Origin: Actibacterium sp. 188UL27-1
GTDB taxonomy: Bacteria > Pseudomonadota > Alphaproteobacteria > Rhodobacterales > Rhodobacteraceae
Length of the DNA stretch: 64,000 bases
Direction: 5' to 3'
Assembly: GCF_016901225.1 (NCBI RefSeq)
Contig: NZ_JAFEUL010000003.1
Coordinates: forward strand, 1 to 64,000
Shown: positions 18,238 through 29,402 of the stretch, piece by piece
Position numbering within the stretch: position 1 is the first letter of the stretch
Layout of the letters: every line of letters begins with the position of its first letter
Made by a program: the position numbers and the translations under genes
The notes under the pieces: generated by a model
Seen by the model: the letters and a program-made list of their open reading frames with translations, nothing else
Told to the model about the DNA's origin: nothing
The model's database searches: none

Positions 18238-19440
18238 TTAGGTGACAAGGGCCTGTTTCTTGTATTTGTCATGCTTCCAGAGCCCATTATTGATGACGTC
18301 TTCGATAACATCGACAGCTTTCCGTACATCTGCCTCGTCAATGTATAGCGGTGTAAAACCGAAACGCATGATGTTGGGTGCGCGGAAGTCTCCGATTACA
18401 TTTCGGTCGATAAGGGCCTGCATGGCGGCGTAGCCGTTGTCGAAGGCAAATGAAACCTGGCTCCCACGCGCAGCACTGTCGCGTGGGCTGACAAGAGTGA
18501 GAGCCGGGCAGCGCGCCTCAACCTCGCGGATAAAGCAGTCAGACAGCGCCACCGAGGCGCGACGCACCTTAGCCATATCGACACTGTCCCAAAGCCCTAG
18601 CGCATGTTCCAGTGCCGTCATTTGCATGACCGGCGGGGTGCCGACGCGCATGCGACCGATACCCGGCGCTGGGCGATAATCCAGCTCAAAGGCAAAAGGC
18701 GCATCATGCCCCAGCCACCCTGCAAGGGCTGGATCTACAGTCTCAGCAATATCGCGACGCACATAGATGAAGGCTGGTGCGCCGGGACCGCCATTGAGGT
18801 ATTTGTACGTGCATCCCACGGCAAATTCGCTATTGGATGCCACGAGATCCACCGGTACGGCACCTGCACTATGTGCAAGATCCCACACCATGACAGCCCC
18901 GGCCGTGTGGGCTGCCAGTGTGATCGCATTCATGTCATGCATGCGACCTGTACGGTAATCAACCTGGGTGATCATGGCGACCGCGACGGTTTCGTCCATG
19001 GCATCCGCCACTTCTTCCGGGTCCACGATCCGCAACTCATACCCTTGATCCAACTGCCCAATCAGCCCCTGTGCCATGTAAAGATCTGATGGGAAGTTGC
19101 CGCTGTCCGACAGGATCACCCGCCGCCGGGGGCGCATCTTGAGCGCAGCAGACAGGGCTTGGTATACCTTTATGGAAAGCGTATCGCCTATCGTGACACT
19201 GCCATCCGGAGCACCAATCAGCCGGGCAACCTGATTGCCGACGCGGGCAGGCTGTTCCATCCAGCCATCGCGATTCCATCCGGTGATCAGGTGGCCCCCC
19301 CACTCCTCGGTCAACATGAATTGAAGGCGTTCACTTGTGCCTTTGGGCAGCGGGCCAAGGGAGTTGCCATCAAGATAGATCACACCCTCAGGCAGATCGA
19401 ACCGCTCCTTTATCGGCAGGTCGTGTACGGTGTTTTTCAT
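18238..19440 (-). CDS. kynU: Kynureninase
   Basis: This PLP enzyme (400 residues) cleaves L-kynurenine to anthranilate and L-alanine. Typical blocks are GVIYLDGNSLGPLPKGT, HLITGWNRDGWMEQP, SDSGNFPSDLYMAQG and VGCTYKYLNGGPGAPAF, where Lys213 is the PLP-binding lysine; MRVGTPPVMQMTALEHAL and FRAPNIMRFGFTPLY follow. I start at ATG 19440, which overlaps the kynA stop as ATGA; the longer frame to 19461 would run into kynA. As the last gene of the GntR-kynA-kynU operon it should be translationally coupled. No kynurenine 3-monooxygenase is nearby, so the product is anthranilate. Confidence 0.95.
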   Translation of the reverse strand: MKNTVHDLPIKERFDLPEGVIYLDGNSLGPLPKGTSERLQFMLTEEWGGHLITGWNRDGWMEQPARVGNQVARLIGAPDGSVTIGDTLSIKVYQALSAALKMRPRRRVILSDSGNFPSDLYMAQGLIGQLDQGYELRIVDPEEVADAMDETVAVAMITQVDYRTGRMHDMNAITLAAHTAGAVMVWDLAHSAGAVPVDLVASNSEFAVGCTYKYLNGGPGAPAFIYVRRDIAETVDPALAGWLGHDAPFAFELDYRPAPGIGRMRVGTPPVMQMTALEHALGLWDSVDMAKVRRASVALSDCFIREVEARCPALTLVSPRDSAARGSQVSFAFDNGYAAMQALIDRNVIGDFRAPNIMRFGFTPLYIDEADVRKAVDVIEDVINNGLWKHDKYKKQALVT

Positions 19441-20267
19441 AGCTGACCTCTCACGTTCCAAAGTTCGGGGAAAAGCTCCACTTCAAGCATTTTGCGCAGA
19501 TATTTCATGCCCGACGTGCCGCCGGTGCCGCGTTTGAACCCGATGATGCGTTCGACAGTGGTGACATGGTTGAAACGCCACCTGCGAAAATAGTCTTCGA
19601 TATCAACCAGCTTTTCCGCCAGTTCGTAAAGCGGCCAATGCTGATCAGGCGCGGCATAGACTTGCGCCCAGGCATCCATGATGACCGGATCGGCCATATG
19701 CGGCTGGTTGAACCGGTAGACATCTGGCGCGAAGGTCACATCAAAATGGGCGGCCAATTGATCAAGCGCCACGTGATAGAGCGACTTCCGACCCAGTTCT
19801 TGCTCAAGCATATGATGCAACGCAGGGCGATGCGCATGCACCTTCATCATGGCGGCGTTGCGGTTCCCCAAAATGAACTCGATCAGGCGGTATTGATGGG
19901 ATTGAAAGCCCGAAGACTTGCCCAGATTATCCCGAAAAGCGGTGTATTCGCTAGGGGTCATGGTGCGCAGCACATCCCAAGCGTTATTGAGCTGTTCAAA
20001 GATGCGCGCCACCCGCGATAGCATTTTGAACACGGGTGAAAAGTTGCCCCGAGCGAGTTCATCACGGGCAACCGTGATCTCATGGAGCGCAAGGCGCATC
20101 CACAGTTCAGACGTTTGATGCTGAATGATAAACAACATCTCGTCATGGGAGTCCGACTGTCGGTTTTGTGCGCCCAGGATAGGATCAAGCGCGAGGTAAT
20201 CGATGTAGGACATGTCTTTGGCAAATGACATTTGCGCCCCCTCGGCCGAGGGATCATAAGCGGTCAT
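19437..20267 (-). CDS. kynA: Tryptophan 2,3-dioxygenase
   Basis: This heme enzyme (276 residues, normal length) opens the indole ring of L-tryptophan to N-formylkynurenine. Landmarks are MLFIIQHQTSELWMRL with His50 (active-site side), EYTAFRDNLGKSSGFQSHQYR with Arg112 for substrate carboxylate, and RWRFNHVTTVERIIGF with His234 as the expected heme ligand, followed by KRGTGGTSG. It overlaps the regulator before it and kynU after it by four bases each (ATGA). No formamidase gene follows, although one is needed to convert formylkynurenine to kynurenine. Confidence 0.95.
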   Translation of the reverse strand: MTAYDPSAEGAQMSFAKDMSYIDYLALDPILGAQNRQSDSHDEMLFIIQHQTSELWMRLALHEITVARDELARGNFSPVFKMLSRVARIFEQLNNAWDVLRTMTPSEYTAFRDNLGKSSGFQSHQYRLIEFILGNRNAAMMKVHAHRPALHHMLEQELGRKSLYHVALDQLAAHFDVTFAPDVYRFNQPHMADPVIMDAWAQVYAAPDQHWPLYELAEKLVDIEDYFRRWRFNHVTTVERIIGFKRGTGGTSGMKYLRKMLEVELFPELWNVRGQL

Positions 20268-21040
20268 ATCTGGATCTCCGCATTTGGTGCCTGCAAAATC
20301 TTGGCCACTTGGGTATTGGCAGGGATCAGTGTGCTGAGCCTTTCAAAAGCCTTGATGGATAAGTTCACATGGGCTTCAACGACCGTCTTTGCTGCGGATA
20401 CATCGCGCCCGATCGCCACTTGATACAGGGCGTCATGCGGTTCGGTGGCGAGGGCCGTCGCGTAGATCTCAGCTGCTTGGGGGGCCGCATCGGGGTGGGT
20501 TTGGTGTAGATCGCGCAGACCGGTTTGAATGAACCTCTGGTAGCGGACGAGTTGATCCCTGAGCTGCCGGTGAAAGTGCAACATCCACGGTGCATCGACC
20601 CGAGCAATCAGCGCGTCATGGAATGCGTCATGCCTTCGGTTCCAAAGCGTCAATTCATCCTCAGACCCCAGCACCGACATCGGTGAAATAGCCGTTAGGT
20701 GGTGGTAAGCTCCAATCAGTCCGGCCTCCCAGCTGTCATCGCCCTGCTCCATCGCGCGCGCAAATAGTGCGCCTTCAATAATGCAGCGGCTCCGTTCCAG
20801 ATCCAGCAATTCCATGAGCGACAGGCCCGCCACGCGGAACCCCTTGTTATGTTCGATCACAACCAGTTTGTCGGCGCTCAGCCGGTTCAGGCAATCGCGG
20901 ATCGGGGTTATGCCAAGGTCATAACGCTCCGACAACGCGGGCAGGCGCAATGCGCCGCCCGGTGGCAGTTTGAGCGACAGAATATCTGCCCTCATCCGAC
21001 TATAGAGTTCACCCGATTTCGAAGGTTTATGCATCGTCAT
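20264..21040 (-). CDS. GntR-family (FCD/FadR subfamily) regulator
   Basis: This is a 258-residue regulator. The N-terminal winged helix (LYSRMRADILSLKLPPGGAL, then RYDLGITPIRDCLNRLSADK and LVVIEHNKGFRV) is followed by an all-helical FCD ligand-binding domain (about 90-230) with the metal-site pattern HDAFHDAL, HRQL and ALYQVAIGRD. It is the first gene of the kyn operon and divergent from the aminobenzoyl-CoA operon. A perfect 7-3-7 palindrome lies 35 bases before its start. Tryptophan, kynurenine or anthranilate metabolites are plausible effectors; this is inferred. Confidence 0.88.
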   Translation of the reverse strand: MTMHKPSKSGELYSRMRADILSLKLPPGGALRLPALSERYDLGITPIRDCLNRLSADKLVVIEHNKGFRVAGLSLMELLDLERSRCIIEGALFARAMEQGDDSWEAGLIGAYHHLTAISPMSVLGSEDELTLWNRRHDAFHDALIARVDAPWMLHFHRQLRDQLVRYQRFIQTGLRDLHQTHPDAAPQAAEIYATALATEPHDALYQVAIGRDVSAAKTVVEAHVNLSIKAFERLSTLIPANTQVAKILQAPNAEIQI

Positions 21041-21433: not shown

Positions 21434-23728
21434 GTGCGTGTAGCTTGTCTTGGCGGCGGCCCGGCTGGCTTGTATTTCGGGATTTCTTTGAAACTCCGTG
21501 ATCCAAGTGCGGAAGTTGTGGTGATCGAACGGAACCGGCCCAATGACACATTTGGCTGGGGTGTCGTTTTATCAGACGAAACGCTCGAAAACCTTGCTTT
21601 GAATGACGCCGTCAGTGCGGCATCGATCCGCAAACACTTCGCCTATTGGGACGATGTCGCGCTCGTGCATCAGGGCAAGCGGACAGTGTCCGGCGGCCAT
21701 GGGTTTTGCGGGATCGGCCGCAAGCGGCTTCTGCTTTTGTTGCAAGAGCGTGCGCGTGACTTGGGCGTCGTCCTTCAGTTTGAAACAGAAGTCGAAAGCG
21801 CGAGCGCGTATAAAGACGACTTTGATGTGGTGATCGCAGCCGATGGGTTGAACTCCAAAACCCGGATGGAGTTTGCGCACGTCTTTCAGCCAGACATCGA
21901 TCAGCGTTTGTGCCAGTTTGTCTGGCTGGGAACCCATCAAAAATTTGACGATGCCTTCACTTTTATCTTCGAAAACACTGAAAAAGGGTGGGTCTGGGCC
22001 CACGCCTATCAATTCGATGATGAGACCGCGACGTTCATTGTTGAATGCACGCAAAACACATTTGAGGCGTATGGCTTTGGTGACCTGAGCCAGCAAGAAA
22101 GCATAGCCATCTGCGAAGACATCTTCCGCGATCATCTGGGCGGGCATGCCCTGATGACGAATGCAAACCACATCCGCGGCTCTGCCTGGTTACGCTTCCC
22201 GCGCGTGCTGTGTGAGACCTGGCATCACGAAAATATCGCCTTGTTGGGCGACGCGGCGGCCACGGCACATTTCTCGATCGGTTCGGGCACAAAGCTGGCG
22301 CTTGAGGGCGCGATTGCACTGGCCGATCTCATCCATACCGAAGACACGCTGGATGCGGCCTTTGCACGCTATCAAGAAGAACGCAGGTTGGAGGTATTGC
22401 GGCTGCAATCGGCGGCGCGAAACTCTGTCGAATGGTTTGAGGGCGTGGAGCGCTACCTTGATCTCGACCCAGTACAGCTGAACTACTCACTGTTGACGCG
22501 CAGCCAGCGGATCAGTCACGAGAACCTGCGGGAACGCGATGCCAATTGGCTGGGATCTGCAGAAGCATGGTTCATGGAGCAAGCTGGCGAAGGCCATAAC
22601 ACACCCGCCCGCGCGCCAATGTTTGCACCATTCCGTTTACGTGAGATGGCGTTGAAGAACCGTATCGTGGTCTCACCCATGGCGCAGTACAAGGCCGTCG
22701 ATGGCAATCCAACCGATTGGCACCTGATCCACTACGGCGAACGTGCCAAAGGTGGTGCTGGCCTAGTCTATACCGAAATGACCTGTACGTCCGCCCATGG
22801 GCGGATCACGCCGGGTTGTCCGGGTCTTTACGCACCTGAGCATGAAGCAGCTTGGGCGCGGCTCACGAACTTTGTCCACACTGAAACCGACGCCAAGATC
22901 TGCTGCCAGATCGGTCATTCCGGGCGCAAGGGGTCCACCCGCCTTGGGTGGGACGGTATGGATCAACCGCTGACCGACGGGAATTGGCCACTGATATCAG
23001 CCTCAGCAATTCCATGGGCCGCAGGAAGTGACACGCCCAAAGCGATGGACCGCGCAGATATGGATGCCGTGCGCGATGAGTTCATCGATGCGGCGCAAAT
23101 GGCCAACCGCGCCGGTTTTGACATGATCGAACTGCATGCCGCCCACGGCTATCTCATTTCATCATTCATCTCGCCGTTGTCCAACGCACGCGATGATGAC
23201 TACAGCGGCAGCTTGGAAAACCGATTGCGCTATCCATTGGAGGTGTTTCAAGCCATGCGTGCGGTCTGGCCAGCCGACAAGCCCATGTCGGTGCGCATCT
23301 CTGCCAGTGACTGGGCCGGAGACGATGGTGTGACGGCCGACGAAGCTGTTGAAATCGCCACAGCATTCGAAGCAGCGGGCGCTGACATCATCGATGTTTC
23401 AGCCGGGCAGACTTCGACGCGGGCCATGCCTGTCTATGGCCGCATGTTCCAAACACCATTCTCAGACCGCATTCGAAATGAACGTGGAATTAAGACCATG
23501 GCCGTGGGGAATATTTATGAAGCGGATCATGTGAACTCGATCCTGATGGCGGGGCGGGCCGATCTTGTATGTTTGGCGCGACCCCATCTGGCTGACCCGT
23601 ATTGGACATTGCACGCCGCATCCGAAATTGGGGACCGCCAAGAGGTTTGGCCGAAACCTTACGAGGCCGGCCGCGATCAGGCCTGGCGTTTGGCCGACCG
23701 TGCCACCGAGATGGCGGGGAAAGTCTGA
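21434..23728 (+). CDS. 2-aminobenzoyl-CoA monooxygenase/reductase-type flavoprotein (FAD hydroxylase-OYE fusion)
   Basis: This two-domain 764-residue flavoprotein has residues 1-390 as a class A FAD monooxygenase ([51 protein letters not shown]) and about 396-764 as an Old Yellow Enzyme-type reductase ([51 protein letters not shown]). This fusion occurs in 2-aminobenzoyl-CoA monooxygenase/reductase, which hydroxylates and then reduces the ring of anthraniloyl-CoA with O2 and NAD(P)H, and in salicylyl-CoA 5-hydroxylases. The adjacent kynureninase and CoA ligase favour the aminobenzoyl substrate. The start is GTG with GAGGCG upstream. It is the first gene of an eight-gene operon. Confidence 0.88.
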
Positions 23729-23730
23729 AC

Positions 23731-24459
23731 ATGCATGTCGTCGTCACAGGTGGCGGTTCCGGTGTCGGCGCGGACGTGGCACAGACTCTGGCGGCCTCCC
23801 ACCATGCGGTGACGATCATAGGCCGCACCAAGGCGGCTTTGGCTGCACAAAAGCTGCCTCATCAAACCTGCGATGTAACAGACGCTGCGGCGGTCGAAAC
23901 CGCCTTTGCAGCTGCACGCGTGGAACAAGGGCCCATTGAGGCTGTCATTGCCAATGCAGGTGCCGCGCATTCGGTGCCTTTCCACAAGATGGATGTGATG
24001 GACCTACAGGCGATGACCGACATCAATTTGGTCGGGGTTTTCAATGTGTGGAAAGCGGCGCTGCCAGATATGCAGGCGGCCAAGGCGGGCCGCATGATCG
24101 CCGTTGCCTCGACTGCCGGCCTCAAAGGCTATCCCTACGTGTCCGGCTATTGTGCGGCAAAGCATGGCGTTATTGGCCTGACCCGCGCTCTGGCACTTGA
24201 GCTCGCCCATACCGGGATCACGGTGAACGCGGTTTGCCCTGGCTTTGTGGAAACCCCCATGCTGGTACGTTCGATCGATACCATCGTCGAAAAAACGGGG
24301 ATGACACGCGAGGACGCGGCAAGATCGCTGTCTTCGTCCAATCCGCAAAAGCGCTTTGTCCAGACCGGGGAAGTGGCAAGCGCTGTCATGTGGTTGCTGT
24401 CACCCGCGGCACAGGCGGTGAATGGGCACGCACTTAGCCTGTCTGGAGGAGAGATATGA
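23731..24459 (+). CDS. Short-chain dehydrogenase/reductase (SDR)
   Basis: This 242-residue classical SDR has the cofactor loop VVTGGGSGVGADVAQTL (TGxxxGxG), NAG in AVIANAGAAHSV, and the catalytic Ser-Tyr-Lys in AVASTAGLKGYPYVSGYCAAKHG. The acceptor end is PGFVETPML. I start at ATG 23731, two bases after the previous stop; the open frame upstream lies inside the monooxygenase gene. In this operon it could oxidise or reduce the ring keto/hydroxy group formed by the monooxygenase/reductase. This role is inferred from position. Confidence 0.88.
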   Translation: MHVVVTGGGSGVGADVAQTLAASHHAVTIIGRTKAALAAQKLPHQTCDVTDAAAVETAFAAARVEQGPIEAVIANAGAAHSVPFHKMDVMDLQAMTDINLVGVFNVWKAALPDMQAAKAGRMIAVASTAGLKGYPYVSGYCAAKHGVIGLTRALALELAHTGITVNAVCPGFVETPMLVRSIDTIVEKTGMTREDAARSLSSSNPQKRFVQTGEVASAVMWLLSPAAQAVNGHALSLSGGEI

Positions 24460-24941
24460 GCATAACGCCACACAAGGACCCGTTAGAGGCACCTTCAAAG
24501 GAACGTTTGCGGCTGTGGTTGCGCTTCTTGAAAGCCAGCCGTTCAATCGAGACCACGCTGAGAGAGAATTTTAAAGCAGACTTTAACACTACCCTGCCGC
24601 GCTTTGACGTGCTCGCGGCGCTCTCGCGTTATGCCGATGGCCTGAAGATGAGCCAGATATCTGGCGTGCTCAAGGTCTCCAATGGCAATGTCACCGGCAT
24701 CGTGGATCGTTTGGCTGAAGAGGGCTTGCTGGTGCGGGTATCCGTGCAAGGCGACCGGCGCGCGTCCCTCGTGCGGCTCACGCAGCGGGGGCAGGAAGAG
24801 TTTGCCCGTCAGGCCGTGGCGCATGAAGGATGGGTCAACGACATGCTGTCGGGTTTTGACGCTGAAATGGCGCGGGCCTTGGCCGACGACCTGCAAGCGC
24901 TGGAAACAAGCTTAGCCGCGGAACCTGACAGCGATGGTTGA
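24456..24941 (+). CDS. MarR-family regulator inside the operon
   Basis: This 161-residue winged-helix protein has the DNA-binding region [20 protein letters not shown], then [20 protein letters not shown] and [15 protein letters not shown] (residues about 65-115). It overlaps the SDR stop (ATGA), and its own stop overlaps the next start by eight bases, so it is made with the enzymes. MarR proteins of aromatic CoA pathways often sense the CoA thioester; here 2-aminobenzoyl-CoA is a plausible ligand. Together with the divergent GntR this gives the island two local regulators. Confidence 0.88.
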
Positions 24942-25734
24942 AATCGTCCAACATTTCAAATGCCAGATCGAAGGGCGGATCGCCCATGTCGCACTGAATC
25001 GGCCCGACCGGAAAAATCCACTCACCTTCGAAAGCTACGCAGAGCTGCGCGATTGGTTCCGGGGGCTGGTCTATCGCGACGATATCAATGTCGTGATCTT
25101 TGGAGCAAATGGAGGCAATTTTTCCTCTGGCGGAGATGTGCACGATATCATTGGCCCACTCACCCGAATGAATATGAAAGAGCTTTTGACATTCACCCGG
25201 ATGACCGGGGATTTGGTCAAAGCCATTGTTCATTGCGGAAAGCCGGTGATCGCCGCGATTGATGGGGTCTGCGTCGGGGCCGGTGCGATCATTGCCATGG
25301 CGTCAGATCTGCGGATCGCCACACCCGCAGCGAAATGTGCGTTTCTGTTCACCCGCGTAGGGTTGGCGGGGTGCGATATGGGAGCTTGTGCGATCTTGCC
25401 CCGCATCATCGGCCAAACCCGCGCGGCGGAACTGCTATATACCGGTCGGTCGATGTCGGCTGACGAAGGGTCTGCCTGGGGGTTTTACAACCAAGTGGTC
25501 CCTCAAGACGCATTAAAAAATAGCGCGACAGAGATGGCGGAACGCATCGCCGCGGGACCGAATTTTGCACATATGATGACCAAAACAATGCTCGCGCAGG
25601 AATGGTCCATGTCGATCGAACAGGCGATCGAGGCTGAAGCGCAAGCGCAGGCCATATGCATGCAAACCGGCGATTTTGAACGGGCCTACAATGCTTTCGT
25701 CGCCAAGGAAAAACCGGTGTTCGAGGGCAACTGA
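24934..25734 (+). CDS. Crotonase-fold (enoyl-CoA hydratase/isomerase family) enzyme
   Basis: This 266-residue crotonase-fold protein has the oxyanion loop [11 protein letters not shown] and [20 protein letters not shown]. The stretch [20 protein letters not shown] replaces the usual PE(x)LLG..PGAGG segment, so the first catalytic Glu of hydratases appears to be Arg here, whereas the second (AAELLYTG) is kept. It is thus unlikely to be a plain hydratase; C-C bond hydrolysis or isomerisation of a ring CoA ester is possible. The start overlaps the MarR gene by eight bases, and the stop overlaps the next start by one base (TGATG). Confidence 0.85.
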
Positions 25735-26885
25735 TGGCAGATCAAAGCTATCTCTCATGGCCATTCTTTGCGCCCGAACATGCTGCCTTGGCCGCGCGGG
25801 CAGAAGAGGTGGCGCACGATCTGGTTGTTCAGCATGAAGACACTGACACGGCCTGCCGCGCTCTGGTGAGCCACCTTGGACGGGCCGGATTGCTGGAACA
25901 TACTGGCAGCCCGGAAGGCAAGCTGGACGTGCGCAGCCTGTGCCTGTGTCGCGAAATCCTCGCGCGCCATGACGGGCTGGCGGATTTCGCTTTTGCGATG
26001 CAGGGCCTGGGCACGGGCGCGATTTCACTGTTCGGCTCGGACGAGCAAAAACAGGAATGGCTGCCGCGCACGAGAACCGGTCAGGCAATTTCCGCCTTTG
26101 CGCTGACGGAGCCGGGGTCTGGTTCAGATGTGGCGAATAACACGATGTCGGCCACACCCGATGGCACGCATTTTATACTCAACGGGCAGAAGACCTGGAT
26201 CTCAAATGGTGGGATCGCCGACATGTACACGGTGTTTGCGCGAAGCAAAGATGTGTCGGGCGCCAAGGGTATGTCGGCCTTTATCGTCACCCCAGACCTG
26301 CCCGGCTTCGACGTTGTCGAACGGCTGGAGACCATTGCGCCCCACCCGCTCGCGCGGTTGCGCTTTGACGAGGTGCGTCTGCCAGCAACCGCGATGATCG
26401 GCGGGCCGGGGCAGGGTTTCAAAATTGCGATGTCAGTGCTTGATGTGTTCCGCTCCACTGTCGCGGCTGCGGCGCTTGGCTTTGCCCGCCGCGCGCTGGA
26501 TGAGGCGCTTGCCCGTGTGACTTCCAGGCAGGTACAAGGCGCACCTTTGGCGGCCCTGCAGATGGTGCAAGGTCATATTGCCGATATGGCACTTGATATC
26601 GATGCAAGCGCATTGCTGATTTATCGCGCGGCCTGGGCAAAGGACAGCGGTGCGCCCCGGGTGACCCGCGAAGCGGCAATGGCCAAGCTTTTTGCCACGG
26701 ATCAAGCCCAGCAGGTCATCGACAAGGCGGTACAGCTTTTTGGCGGCGATGGCGTGCGCTCGGGCACGGTCGTTGAAACGCTCTATCGCGAAATCAGAGC
26801 CTTGCGCATCTACGAGGGTGCCTCTGACGTCCAAAAGATCATTATCGCGCGCCAGGCAATGGCCGCTCATCAGGGAGAGGCGTGA
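25734..26885 (+). CDS. Acyl-CoA dehydrogenase family protein
   Basis: This 383-residue FAD enzyme has the full three-domain acyl-CoA dehydrogenase pattern: AFALTEPGSGSDVANNTMSA (FAD/substrate signature), KTWISNGGIADMYTVFA, the FAD-binding QLFGGDGVRSGTVVETLYRE and the catalytic-Glu segment RIYEGASDVQKIIIARQ. It would introduce a double bond next to the thioester in an alicyclic or opened CoA intermediate. It overlaps its neighbours on both sides by one base, indicating tight coupling. No dedicated electron-transfer flavoprotein is in the window. Confidence 0.9.
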   Translation: MADQSYLSWPFFAPEHAALAARAEEVAHDLVVQHEDTDTACRALVSHLGRAGLLEHTGSPEGKLDVRSLCLCREILARHDGLADFAFAMQGLGTGAISLFGSDEQKQEWLPRTRTGQAISAFALTEPGSGSDVANNTMSATPDGTHFILNGQKTWISNGGIADMYTVFARSKDVSGAKGMSAFIVTPDLPGFDVVERLETIAPHPLARLRFDEVRLPATAMIGGPGQGFKIAMSVLDVFRSTVAAAALGFARRALDEALARVTSRQVQGAPLAALQMVQGHIADMALDIDASALLIYRAAWAKDSGAPRVTREAAMAKLFATDQAQQVIDKAVQLFGGDGVRSGTVVETLYREIRALRIYEGASDVQKIIIARQAMAAHQGEA

Positions 26886-28507
26886 TGCGCGGCGCAACGG
26901 CCCATGTCGATACATTTGCCCAAGATAACCTGCCCCCCGTGGAGGATCAGCCTGACTTCCTGCTGGACGGGTTCGACTATCCTGAGGTCCTGAATGCCGG
27001 ACACGAGCTGACCGATGCGATGGTGGCCAAGGGTTTTGGCGATCATACCGCATTGATCGGCAATGGCCGGATGCGCACCTACAAAGAGCTGAGCGACTGG
27101 ACCAACCGGCTGGCCCATGTACTGGTTGACGACATGGGTGTGAAACCGGGAAACCGCGTGATGATCCGGTCTGCAAATAATCCCGCAATGGTCGCGTGTT
27201 GGCTGGCGGCGACCAAGGTAGGCGCGGTCGTCATCAATACGATGCCCATGCTGCGCGCGATTGAGCTAAAGACATATGTCGAAAAAGCTGAGGTTACCTT
27301 CGCGCTTTGCGACACGCGCCTGATGGAAGAGATGAACGGATGTGCTGCAACCTGCCCCGGCCTTCAGGTTGTGGCCTTTGATGGAACGTCAAATCACGAT
27401 GCGGAGTTGGACCGTCTGGCGCTGGAAAAACCTGTGAAATTCGAAGCCGTGCCGACCAGCAGCGATGATGTCGCATTGCTCGGATTTACCAGCGGATCAA
27501 CGGGAGAGCCAAAGGCCACGATGCATTTCCACCGCGATCTGATGATCATTGCGGATGGCTATGCGCGGGAGGTTCTGGGCGTGGTGCCCGATGATATATT
27601 CGTGGGGTCGCCACCGCTGGCCTTTACCTTTGGTTTGGGTGGTTTGGCGCTGTTCCCGCTACGTTTTGGCGCGACAGCCACGCTGTTGGAACAGGCAACA
27701 CCGCCCAATATGATCAAGATCATCGAGAAATACAAAGCCACGGTTTGTTTCACGGCCCCGACCGCCTATCGCGTGATGATGCGTGCAATGGAAGACGGGG
27801 CCGATCTTTCCAGTCTCCGCGCCGCGGTCTCGGCGGGGGAGACGTTGCCACAACCTGTCTATGATGAGTGGATCGAGAAGACGGGCAAACCCCTGCTTGA
27901 TGGCATCGGGGCGACGGAGATGCTGCACATCTTCATCTCCAATCGCTTTGAAGACCATCGCCCCGCCTGCACCGGGAAACCGGTATCGGGCTACGAGGCC
28001 AAAGTGCTGTCTGCCGATGGGTCGGAGGCACCGCGGGGGGAGGTCGGGCGGCTTGCTGTGCGCGGCCCGACTGGGTGCCGCTACCTGAAGGATGAGCGGC
28101 AAAGAAACTATGTGGCCCAAGGATGGAACATCACCGGTGACAGTTTCATGCAGGATGAAGAGGGCTATTTTCATTTTTCGGCCCGCAATGACGATATGAT
28201 CTTGTCTGCGGGCTACAACATCGCCGGTCCCGAAGTTGAAGCCGCGCTGCTCAGCCACGACGCCGTCGCCGAATGTGCGGTCATTGGCGCACCTGATAAG
28301 GATCGTGGACATATCGTTCAGGCACATATCGTGCTGTCAGAAGGGGCTGCGCGCGACGATAGGCTGGTCAAAACCCTTCAGGACCATGTCAAAGCAATCA
28401 TTGCGCCTTACAAATATCCGCGCTCTGTCGTGTTCACAGATGCCTTACCCAAGACGCAAACCGGCAAAATTCAACGCTTTGTCCTCAAAGGATCACATCC
28501 GTTATGA
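26885..28507 (+). CDS. Benzoate/2-aminobenzoate-CoA ligase-type enzyme (AMP-forming)
   Basis: This 540-residue adenylate-forming ligase has the P-loop LLGFTSGSTGEPKATMH, the A5 motif DGIGATEMLHIFIS, then ITGDSFMQDEEGYFHFSARND and the hinge DMILSAGYNIAGPEVEAAL. The catalytic Lys is near the end in LPKTQTGKIQRF. The closest type is benzoate-CoA ligase; with kynureninase alongside, anthranilate is the likely acid, giving 2-aminobenzoyl-CoA. I use ATG 26885, overlapping the previous stop by one base; GTG 26882 would add one residue. Confidence 0.9.
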   Translation: MRGATAHVDTFAQDNLPPVEDQPDFLLDGFDYPEVLNAGHELTDAMVAKGFGDHTALIGNGRMRTYKELSDWTNRLAHVLVDDMGVKPGNRVMIRSANNPAMVACWLAATKVGAVVINTMPMLRAIELKTYVEKAEVTFALCDTRLMEEMNGCAATCPGLQVVAFDGTSNHDAELDRLALEKPVKFEAVPTSSDDVALLGFTSGSTGEPKATMHFHRDLMIIADGYAREVLGVVPDDIFVGSPPLAFTFGLGGLALFPLRFGATATLLEQATPPNMIKIIEKYKATVCFTAPTAYRVMMRAMEDGADLSSLRAAVSAGETLPQPVYDEWIEKTGKPLLDGIGATEMLHIFISNRFEDHRPACTGKPVSGYEAKVLSADGSEAPRGEVGRLAVRGPTGCRYLKDERQRNYVAQGWNITGDSFMQDEEGYFHFSARNDDMILSAGYNIAGPEVEAALLSHDAVAECAVIGAPDKDRGHIVQAHIVLSEGAARDDRLVKTLQDHVKAIIAPYKYPRSVVFTDALPKTQTGKIQRFVLKGSHPL

Positions 28508-28602: not shown

Positions 28603-29010
28603 ATGACGTTTGACATGCGCCAGAGGGTTTTATTCCGCCACTGCGATCCCGCCGGCATCGTATTTTACCCGCGCTATTTCGAGATGATCAACGATGGCCT
28701 TGAGGCATTTTTTGAAGAGGCCTTGGACGCGCCGTGGGATATTCTGCACAAGGCAGCCGCTGTACCAACCGCCGAGATCAAGGCGCGGTTCGCGACACCC
28801 AGCCGCCAAGGCGACCTGCTTATTTTGCGGGTCTCGATCACGCGGGTCGGGCGCAGTTCCATGGGGTACGAGATGACGGCGCGGTGCGGCACAGTATTGC
28901 GGTTTGAGGCATCTGGTACGCTGGTCTTTGTCGATGAGGCAGGCAAAGCAACCGCATGGCCCGCTGATCTGCGCACCAAATTGGAAGAACACAAGGAAAA
29001 TGCGCCATGA
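28603..29010 (+). CDS. 4-hydroxybenzoyl-CoA thioesterase-type hotdog protein
   Basis: This 135-residue hotdog thioesterase has the catalytic Asp in the signature FRHCDPAGIVFYPRYFEMIN (residues about 12-31), as in 4-hydroxybenzoyl-CoA thioesterases, followed by the long helix and strands. It could release CoA from dead-end aromatic thioesters and so protect the CoA pool. It follows the ligase after 95 bases with no obvious terminator and overlaps the Rid gene (ATGA). Confidence 0.87.
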   Translation: MTFDMRQRVLFRHCDPAGIVFYPRYFEMINDGLEAFFEEALDAPWDILHKAAAVPTAEIKARFATPSRQGDLLILRVSITRVGRSSMGYEMTARCGTVLRFEASGTLVFVDEAGKATAWPADLRTKLEEHKENAP

Positions 29011-29402
29011 GCCACAAGACGATCCAACCCGAAGGCTGGTTGCCTGCAAAAGGATACGCCAACGGCATGCTCTCCAAAGACGGCACCCTGCATATCGGCG
29101 GGCAAATCGGGTGGGATGGCAATAAAACCTTCGTTTCGGATGATTTTGTCGGCCAAATGCACCAGGCCTTAAAAAACATCAAAGCGATCGTCGAAGCGGC
29201 TGGCGGACAGGTTTCAGACGTGACGCGACTGACCTGGTTTGTCACAGACAAGATGGAATATGCACGAAGACAAAGTGAAGTCGGTGCAGCCTACCGCGAA
29301 GTCTTTGGTAAGCACTTCCCCGCAATGTCGATGGTTGTCGTTTCAGCCCTTTTGGAGGATGAAGCGGTTGTAGAAATCGAAGCCACAGCACATCTTGGCT
29401 GA
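29007..29402 (+). CDS. Rid-family protein without the RidA catalytic Arg
   Basis: This 131-residue Rid/YjgF-fold protein has GMLSKDGTLHIGGQIGWDGN, FVGQMHQALKNIKAIVEAAG and the end AVVEIEATAHL. Canonical RidA enamine/imine deaminases have Arg in VARLP before the IEIEA strand; here the stretch is VVSALLEDEAVVEIEA, with no Arg. It therefore belongs to a divergent Rid group. Because the monooxygenase product has an enamine nitrogen, this protein could help remove ammonia from it, but this is inferred. It is the last gene of the operon. Confidence 0.82.
   Translation: MSHKTIQPEGWLPAKGYANGMLSKDGTLHIGGQIGWDGNKTFVSDDFVGQMHQALKNIKAIVEAAGGQVSDVTRLTWFVTDKMEYARRQSEVGAAYREVFGKHFPAMSMVVVSALLEDEAVVEIEATAHLG

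Follow-up and report, generated by a model that had tools for sequence, protein, structure and literature searches.

In E. coli RidA (K-12, NC_000913), the ligand-binding residues Arg105, Cys107 and Glu120 lie in the segment FPAR(105)SCVEVAR(112)LPKDVKIE(120), where Arg105 provides a carboxylate salt bridge and Cys107 and Glu120 bind the keto group (PMC4960622). The same arginine recurs in Rid proteins of catabolic pathways: RutC, the E. coli 3-aminoacrylate deaminase, carries it as Arg104 in a PAR motif, is inactive as an R104A variant and acts on a free acid (PMC8113886), and the 2-aminomuconate deaminase AmnE/AmnD keeps it as Arg117 and acts on a ring-opened free acid (PMC6742747). The residues listed for AmnE (Arg117, Val122, Leu125 and Pro126; PMC6742747) have a spacing that fits PAR and not VARLP. 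Arginine mutants of RidA and RutC, as well as Rid7, are reported to be inactive as deaminases with free acids as substrates, and these reports describe no deaminase activity to date for Rid proteins that lack Arg105 (PMC4433059, PMC8113886). Among such proteins, Rid4 and Rid7 have Trp at this position; Rid5 and Rid6 are variable and are listed in PMC4433059 with no known function.

The aerobic 2-aminobenzoyl-CoA route was described from Azoarcus evansii (review PMC4539516). In the literature on this pathway, on RidA/YjgF and on the Rid superfamily, we found no enzyme assigned to the nitrogen-removal step. Beside a MarR-like regulator, the abstract of Schuhle 2001 reportedly lists a "putative translation inhibitor protein" for the Azoarcus evansii cluster. 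Translation inhibitor protein is an old name for the Rid family. The presence of a Rid gene in that cluster is probably already in print, and a role for it might be as well.

We compared these systems with a locus in a 64,000-nucleotide stretch of Actibacterium sp. 188UL27-1 (the window), in which a compact operon, with overlaps of a few bases at most gene junctions, ends in a Rid gene. It runs from a fused 2-aminobenzoyl-CoA monooxygenase/reductase (ACMR) through SDR, MarR, enoyl-CoA hydratase (ECH), acyl-CoA dehydrogenase (ACAD) and aryl-CoA ligase genes to a thioesterase gene, which shares 4 bp with the start of the Rid gene. The SDR start given in the table was chosen because of its overlap with the ACMR stop (ORF as listed: 23602). 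Ligase, ACMR and beta-oxidation genes are shared with the Azoarcus evansii 2-aminobenzoate cluster. With ACMR above its model cut-off, a ligase below that of TIGR02262, and ECH and ACAD genes adjacent, the operon is, judged by gene content, predicted to be the aerobic 2-aminobenzoyl-CoA route as in that organism. NCBI labels the ACMR family bifunctional salicylyl-CoA 5-hydroxylase/oxidoreductase, one name for two activities; the context that bears on anthranilate versus salicylate is the adjoining pair of tryptophan 2,3-dioxygenase (TDO) and kynureninase-like genes. The latter we take to be kynureninase-like from family knowledge and its position beside TDO. In addition, kynU is annotated close to ACMR on a named plasmid.

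Table. Genes of the Rid-containing operon and its divergent neighbors in the window.
Feature	Position	Strand	Evidence
Kynureninase-like, presumed anthranilate release	18238..19461	-	ORF; beside tryptophan dioxygenase
Tryptophan 2,3-dioxygenase, presumed anthranilate source	19437..20267	-	TIGR03036 369.7 bits (cut-off 390.7, not reached)
GntR-family regulator, divergent	20264..21040	-	NF008576, under cut-off
ACMR, fused 2-aminobenzoyl-CoA monooxygenase/reductase	21434..23728	+	NF006101 1288.6 bits, over cut-off 1078
SDR dehydrogenase	23725..24459	+	PF00106; start inferred
MarR-family regulator	24456..24941	+	PF12802
Enoyl-CoA hydratase family protein	24934..25734	+	NF006107 471 bits, over cut-off 330
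Acyl-CoA dehydrogenase	25734..26885	+	PF00441, PF02770
Aryl-CoA ligase, presumed 2-aminobenzoate-CoA ligase	26882..28507	+	TIGR02262 351 bits (cut-off 375, not reached); PF00501
4HBT/YbgC-like acyl-CoA thioesterase	28603..29010	+	PF13279, PF03061; TIGR00051 under cut-off
Rid-family protein	29007..29402	+	PF01042; 131 aa; intact ORF; Met107 at RidA Arg105 position

The last gene of the operon had been predicted from the letters alone to encode a Rid protein, which our analysis bore out: the intact ORF contains VVSALLEDEAVVEIEA and matches the PF01042 profile with 80.7 bits (cut-off 27.3, E 1.1e-22), as one of 11 PF01042 genes in its genome. The AlphaFold2 model, a monomer computed with alignment A1 (see below) as input, has a mean pLDDT of 95.6 and the Rid fold; its top Foldseek matches are the chains of RutC 3v4d (TM 0.78-0.83 by query, 0.82-0.86 by target). 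Like RutC, the window Rid appears as a helper in a catabolic operon, and the beta-enamine acyl motif of its presumed substrate has its acyclic parent in that of RutC; however, it reaches only 51.2 bits in the RutC equivalog TIGR03610 (cut-off 169.1). It also falls below the cut-off of TIGR00004 (RidA/TdcF). With RidA/TdcF, the 2-aminoacrylate deaminase, it shares the fold, the catalytic cleft and, by alignment, Tyr17 and Glu120 (here Tyr17 and Glu123), but has Met107 instead of the Arg105 that characterizes RidA and Rid1-3. AmnE/AmnD resembles it in fold and in belonging to an aromatic-amine pathway. The absence of Arg105 is common to the window Rid and Rid4-Rid7, from which it differs in having an invariant Met, in place of the Trp of Rid4/Rid7, and an evident pathway; the comparison with Rid5/Rid6 covers the Arg105 position and not the rest of the subfamily footprint.

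The original prediction had noted that the catalytic arginine is missing, and had placed it in the VARLP motif of RidA. The absence is real, at another column: the arginine of VARLP is Arg112, and the catalytic Arg105 sits in FPARS. Met107, within FPAMSM, aligns without gaps to Arg105 both in solved Rid proteins, e.g. YabJ (1qd9), and in an alignment of 110 family members. In these 110 proteins the VARLP column is variable (A42 G40 D16 E5 R5 S2), and with Arg in just 5 of 110 we discarded Arg112 as a marker. A shift of the arginine to another position, which the prediction had named as its counter-case, was not apparent in the sequences, since a search of the 110 members found no Arg or Lys shared by at least 95% of them.

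We then asked how constant this position is in the family. Besides the window's own, 43 full-length ACMR loci were taken from 41 genomes, and at 29 of the 43 a Rid gene lies within ~8.8 kb of ACMR; these 29 and the window Rid form family A1 (30 rows). The 110-member set joins A1 to the best 80 named loci of one contig scan, beyond which more loci exist. All 110 proteins (30 A1 and the best 80 named loci) have Met at the Arg105 position; the scan patterns left this position out and hence could not select for Met, yet the best 80 are those nearest to the window Rid. Tyr17, Gly31 and Glu120 are likewise invariant (110/110 each) in the same alignment, and Met recurs in all 12 additional matches scoring at least 178 bits. 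The lack of Arg105 by itself is not rare among Rid paralogues: the 10 others of the same genome have R 3, W 2, S 2, A, T and L at this column. We rejected the idea that Met is a general trait of Arg-less relatives, as six of eight sister Rids (L188-L192 and L194) have Ser there, along with Phe at position 17; no pathway genes were found near these six in the stretches examined. Their source genomes are presumably Bradyrhizobium-like, judged from gene content. Met is also present in the relatives L193 and L195, neither of which was seen beside ACMR. In a tree of 64 rows, the proteobacterial and Deinococcus ACMR-linked Rids cluster with the sisters, and the actinomycete and haloarchaeal Rids form a neighboring group together with one long-branch paralogue; with four label changes and long branches present, the tree lends no support to a single origin of ACMR-linked Rids.

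The distribution of the two genes in the phylum is closely coupled. Full-length ACMR homologues occur in 42 of 299 genomes (39 above the cut-off, and G042, G167 and G083 just under it), and an A1-type Rid (E 1e-22) was detected in 41 of these 42 and in 0 of the 257 others (Fisher p 8e-50). At genus level, which handles relatedness only in part, the Rid is found in 26 of 27 ACMR genera versus 0 of 127 others (p 1e-28). As A1 was built from ACMR-linked Rids, the forward figure of 41/42 is partly circular; the absence in 257 genomes is free of this circularity, as is a reverse check, in which the source genomes of 12 named loci picked for their ACMR-free flanks all had ACMR (10 above the cut-off, 2 as pieces). 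Counting the genome of the window, 36 of the 42 have Rid and ACMR within ~13 kb of each other. In three others (G051, G196 and G200) a contig end falls between them, and in G083 and G115 they are far apart; the Rid cluster of G083 reads SDR-MarR-ECH-ACAD-ligase-TDO-KynU, with no ACMR within the stretch examined. The sole genome with ACMR and no Rid is G296. Among the 80 best named Rid loci, several of them cut by contig or flank ends, ACMR is present at 31, a cut ACMR piece at 7, other pathway genes at 25 and neither at 17, so that linkage inside the examined flanks is not universal. One of the named loci (L134), in a record titled Nocardioides marinus that may be mislabelled, encodes a Rhodobacteraceae-like Rid with 62% identity; its genome has ACMR.

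This coupling bears on the possibility that the Rid is protective, clearing reactive by-products (for example an imine that ACMR gives off), and performs no obligate pathway step. Damage prevention is the role of RidA; RutC is described as dispensable on uridine, where spontaneous hydrolysis also occurs (PMC8113886); and NADH-limited ACMR yields 5-hydroxyanthraniloyl-CoA according to PMC3534580. However, 41 of 42 ACMR genomes with a Rid is stricter than an optional helper predicts, and since PMC3534580 reports the ACMR product to be unstable below pH 5, its spontaneous breakdown may be slow under neutral conditions. We regard a purely protective role as improbable.

The association of Rid and ACMR extends to other phyla. 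A Rid gene lies beside an ACMR homologue on named plasmids of Deinococcus psychrotolerans, Arthrobacter, Tsukamurella and Streptantibioticus, in two Rhodococcus, once within the quinolone-degrading aqd cluster, and on named plasmids of the haloarchaea Natronococcus and Haladaptatus. The Rid gene of Halomicrococcus and Natronosalvus has as its neighbor, by annotation only, an FAD-dependent monooxygenase equal in size to ACMR. The Arg105 column holds Met in Comamonas, Ruegeria, Deinococcus and five of five actinomycetes; the four haloarchaea have Met in two cases and Val or Leu in the other two. Arg was found in none of these groups. The homologue of the window Rid in Ruegeria pomeroyi DSS-3 is SPO_RS21860. 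Our expectation that actinomycete Rids encoded beside a thioesterase would keep Arg was wrong (Met in 5/5). Four haloarchaeal loci (L176, L177, L179 and L185) combine an ACMR-like monooxygenase, an LLM-class flavin-dependent oxidoreductase, Rid and beta-oxidation genes, and these plasmid clusters are, by their gene content, apparently an archaeal version of the 2-aminobenzoyl-CoA pathway. Four actinomycete loci (L178, L181, L182 and L183) have an FAH-family hydrolase, a small cupin and a TesB-type thioesterase instead of ECH/ACAD, and ring opening in these clusters may differ. Among the matches listed, Rids in 192 Escherichia plasmid records are ~37% identical to the window Rid; these E. coli plasmid proteins (E 1e-10) are distant relatives. 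Predicted conjugative plasmids account for 182 of all 305 plasmid records with a Rid match.

Downstream modules thus vary by group (ECH/ACAD in Proteobacteria, FAH/cupin/TesB in Actinomycetota, LLM/ACAD/ECH in haloarchaea), and common to all three are ACMR and Rid, plus an aryl-CoA ligase wherever it is in view. Because ACMR and Rid are constant while the modules vary, the ACMR product is the likely substrate of the Rid. The same constancy speaks against the alternative that the Rid comes into play at least one step further on, its substrate being an amino intermediate that has been ring-opened or processed in some other way and is possibly CoA-free. That alternative draws on the thioesterase gene that adjoins Rid in many clusters, the window operon among them, on the TesB-type thioesterase and FAH-family hydrolase of the actinomycetes, and on the known Rid deaminases of aromatic pathways, which use ring-opened amines such as 2-aminomuconate (PMC6742747). 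A free-acid substrate, however, would favor retention of Arg105, and a deaminated C7 CoA ester has been found in cells (PMC3534580). We consider a later step unlikely, if slightly less so than a protective role.

Three ACMR clusters served as controls for a substrate that has no amine. A gentisate 1,2-dioxygenase-type gene, scoring under the model cut-off, is present in L056 (the ACMR locus of G296) and in L055 (the second ACMR locus of G225), and such a gene also accompanies the ACMR homologue of Natrinema salinisoli (L186); FAH-type or thioesterase genes occur in L056 and L186 as well. A search for a Rid gene down to E 10 found none in these 3/3 clusters. In these three cases, with the substrate deduced from the neighboring genes, the clusters look like salicylate-type clusters with an amine-free CoA ester. 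A gentisate dioxygenase gene together with the lack of a Rid gene is a context cue that separates salicylyl-CoA from 2-aminobenzoyl-CoA enzymes under their one NCBI name. Two unrelated bacteria have a pair of indolepyruvate oxidoreductase-like genes close to an ACMR homologue (L056:11668-15423 and L182:15845-19674).

On the basis of fold, residues, operon and co-occurrence determined here, and of published data for the ACMR product and for C7H8O4-CoA, we consider it likely that the window Rid is a deaminase of the ring enamine in the ACMR product, still a CoA thioester, for which the Arg105 clamp would be dispensable. It would hydrolyze the cyclic beta-enamine to 2,5-dioxocyclohexanecarboxyl-CoA and ammonia by RidA-type chemistry in the inter-subunit cleft, where Tyr17 and Glu123 would activate water on the imine tautomer. 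The invariant Met107 would take the place of Arg105, RidA's clamp for a free carboxylate, because the carboxyl group is a neutral CoA thioester that leaves the clamp without a partner. Activation of water would still call for the Glu, and the residues that are kept and lost agree with this. Catalysis, substrate, CoA placement and the role of Met107 are what we infer. As precedent for the role of the Rid, RutC deaminates 3-aminoacrylate (PMC8113886), the open-chain parent of the ACMR-product enamine. A C7H8O4 CoA ester was reported only in anthranilate-grown Arthrobacter and described by the authors as possibly cyclohexanedione-carboxyl-CoA; its amino precursor is reported to be unstable below pH 5, and part of the ester may be a chemical product because samples were dissolved at pH 3.5 (PMC3534580). 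The original prediction had already proposed a specialized Rid acting on the CoA-bound enamine. Its genomic side gained strong evidence from the co-occurrence, the absence in gentisate-type clusters, the retained Glu and the invariant Met; its structural argument fell, as it had rested on Arg112.

Several observations weigh against a deaminase of the thioester enamine. Published Rid proteins without Arg105 are inactive, albeit on free amino/imino acids; hydrolysis of the enamine could proceed unaided; Val or Leu replaces Met in two of the Rids linked to ACMR in haloarchaea; the Rid is remote from ACMR in two genomes; and Met occurs in the two relatives not seen near ACMR. Moreover, Met is no proof of a thioester substrate, because the actinomycete Rids beside thioesterases have it too. 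The protein might instead not be a deaminase and, without Arg105, have another role, perhaps in binding or regulation, in line with reports in which none of the tested Rid4-7 proteins had deaminase activity (PMC4433059, PMC8113886). We think this very improbable: the equivalents of Glu120 and Tyr17 are invariant, and the pathway requires a deamination, while the other enzyme families of the operon include no known deaminase.

The proposed activity runs counter to the rule in the literature by which deaminase activity of a Rid protein is predicted from Arg105. In more general form, we lean slightly toward the view that a Rid subfamily of bacteria and haloarchaea, strictly tied to ACMR, deaminates a CoA-thioester enamine without the arginine deemed essential for Rid deaminases, that the sole task of this arginine is to grip a free carboxylate, and that replacement of Arg105 by Met or another hydrophobic residue marks Rids with thioester substrates. 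If true, the rule "no Arg105, no deaminase" would give way to "Arg105 reads the carboxylate", which would allow substrate prediction for other orphan Rid proteins, and for marine Roseobacters, soil bacteria and haloarchaea that use tryptophan and anthranilate, the Rid would fill the nitrogen-removal step.
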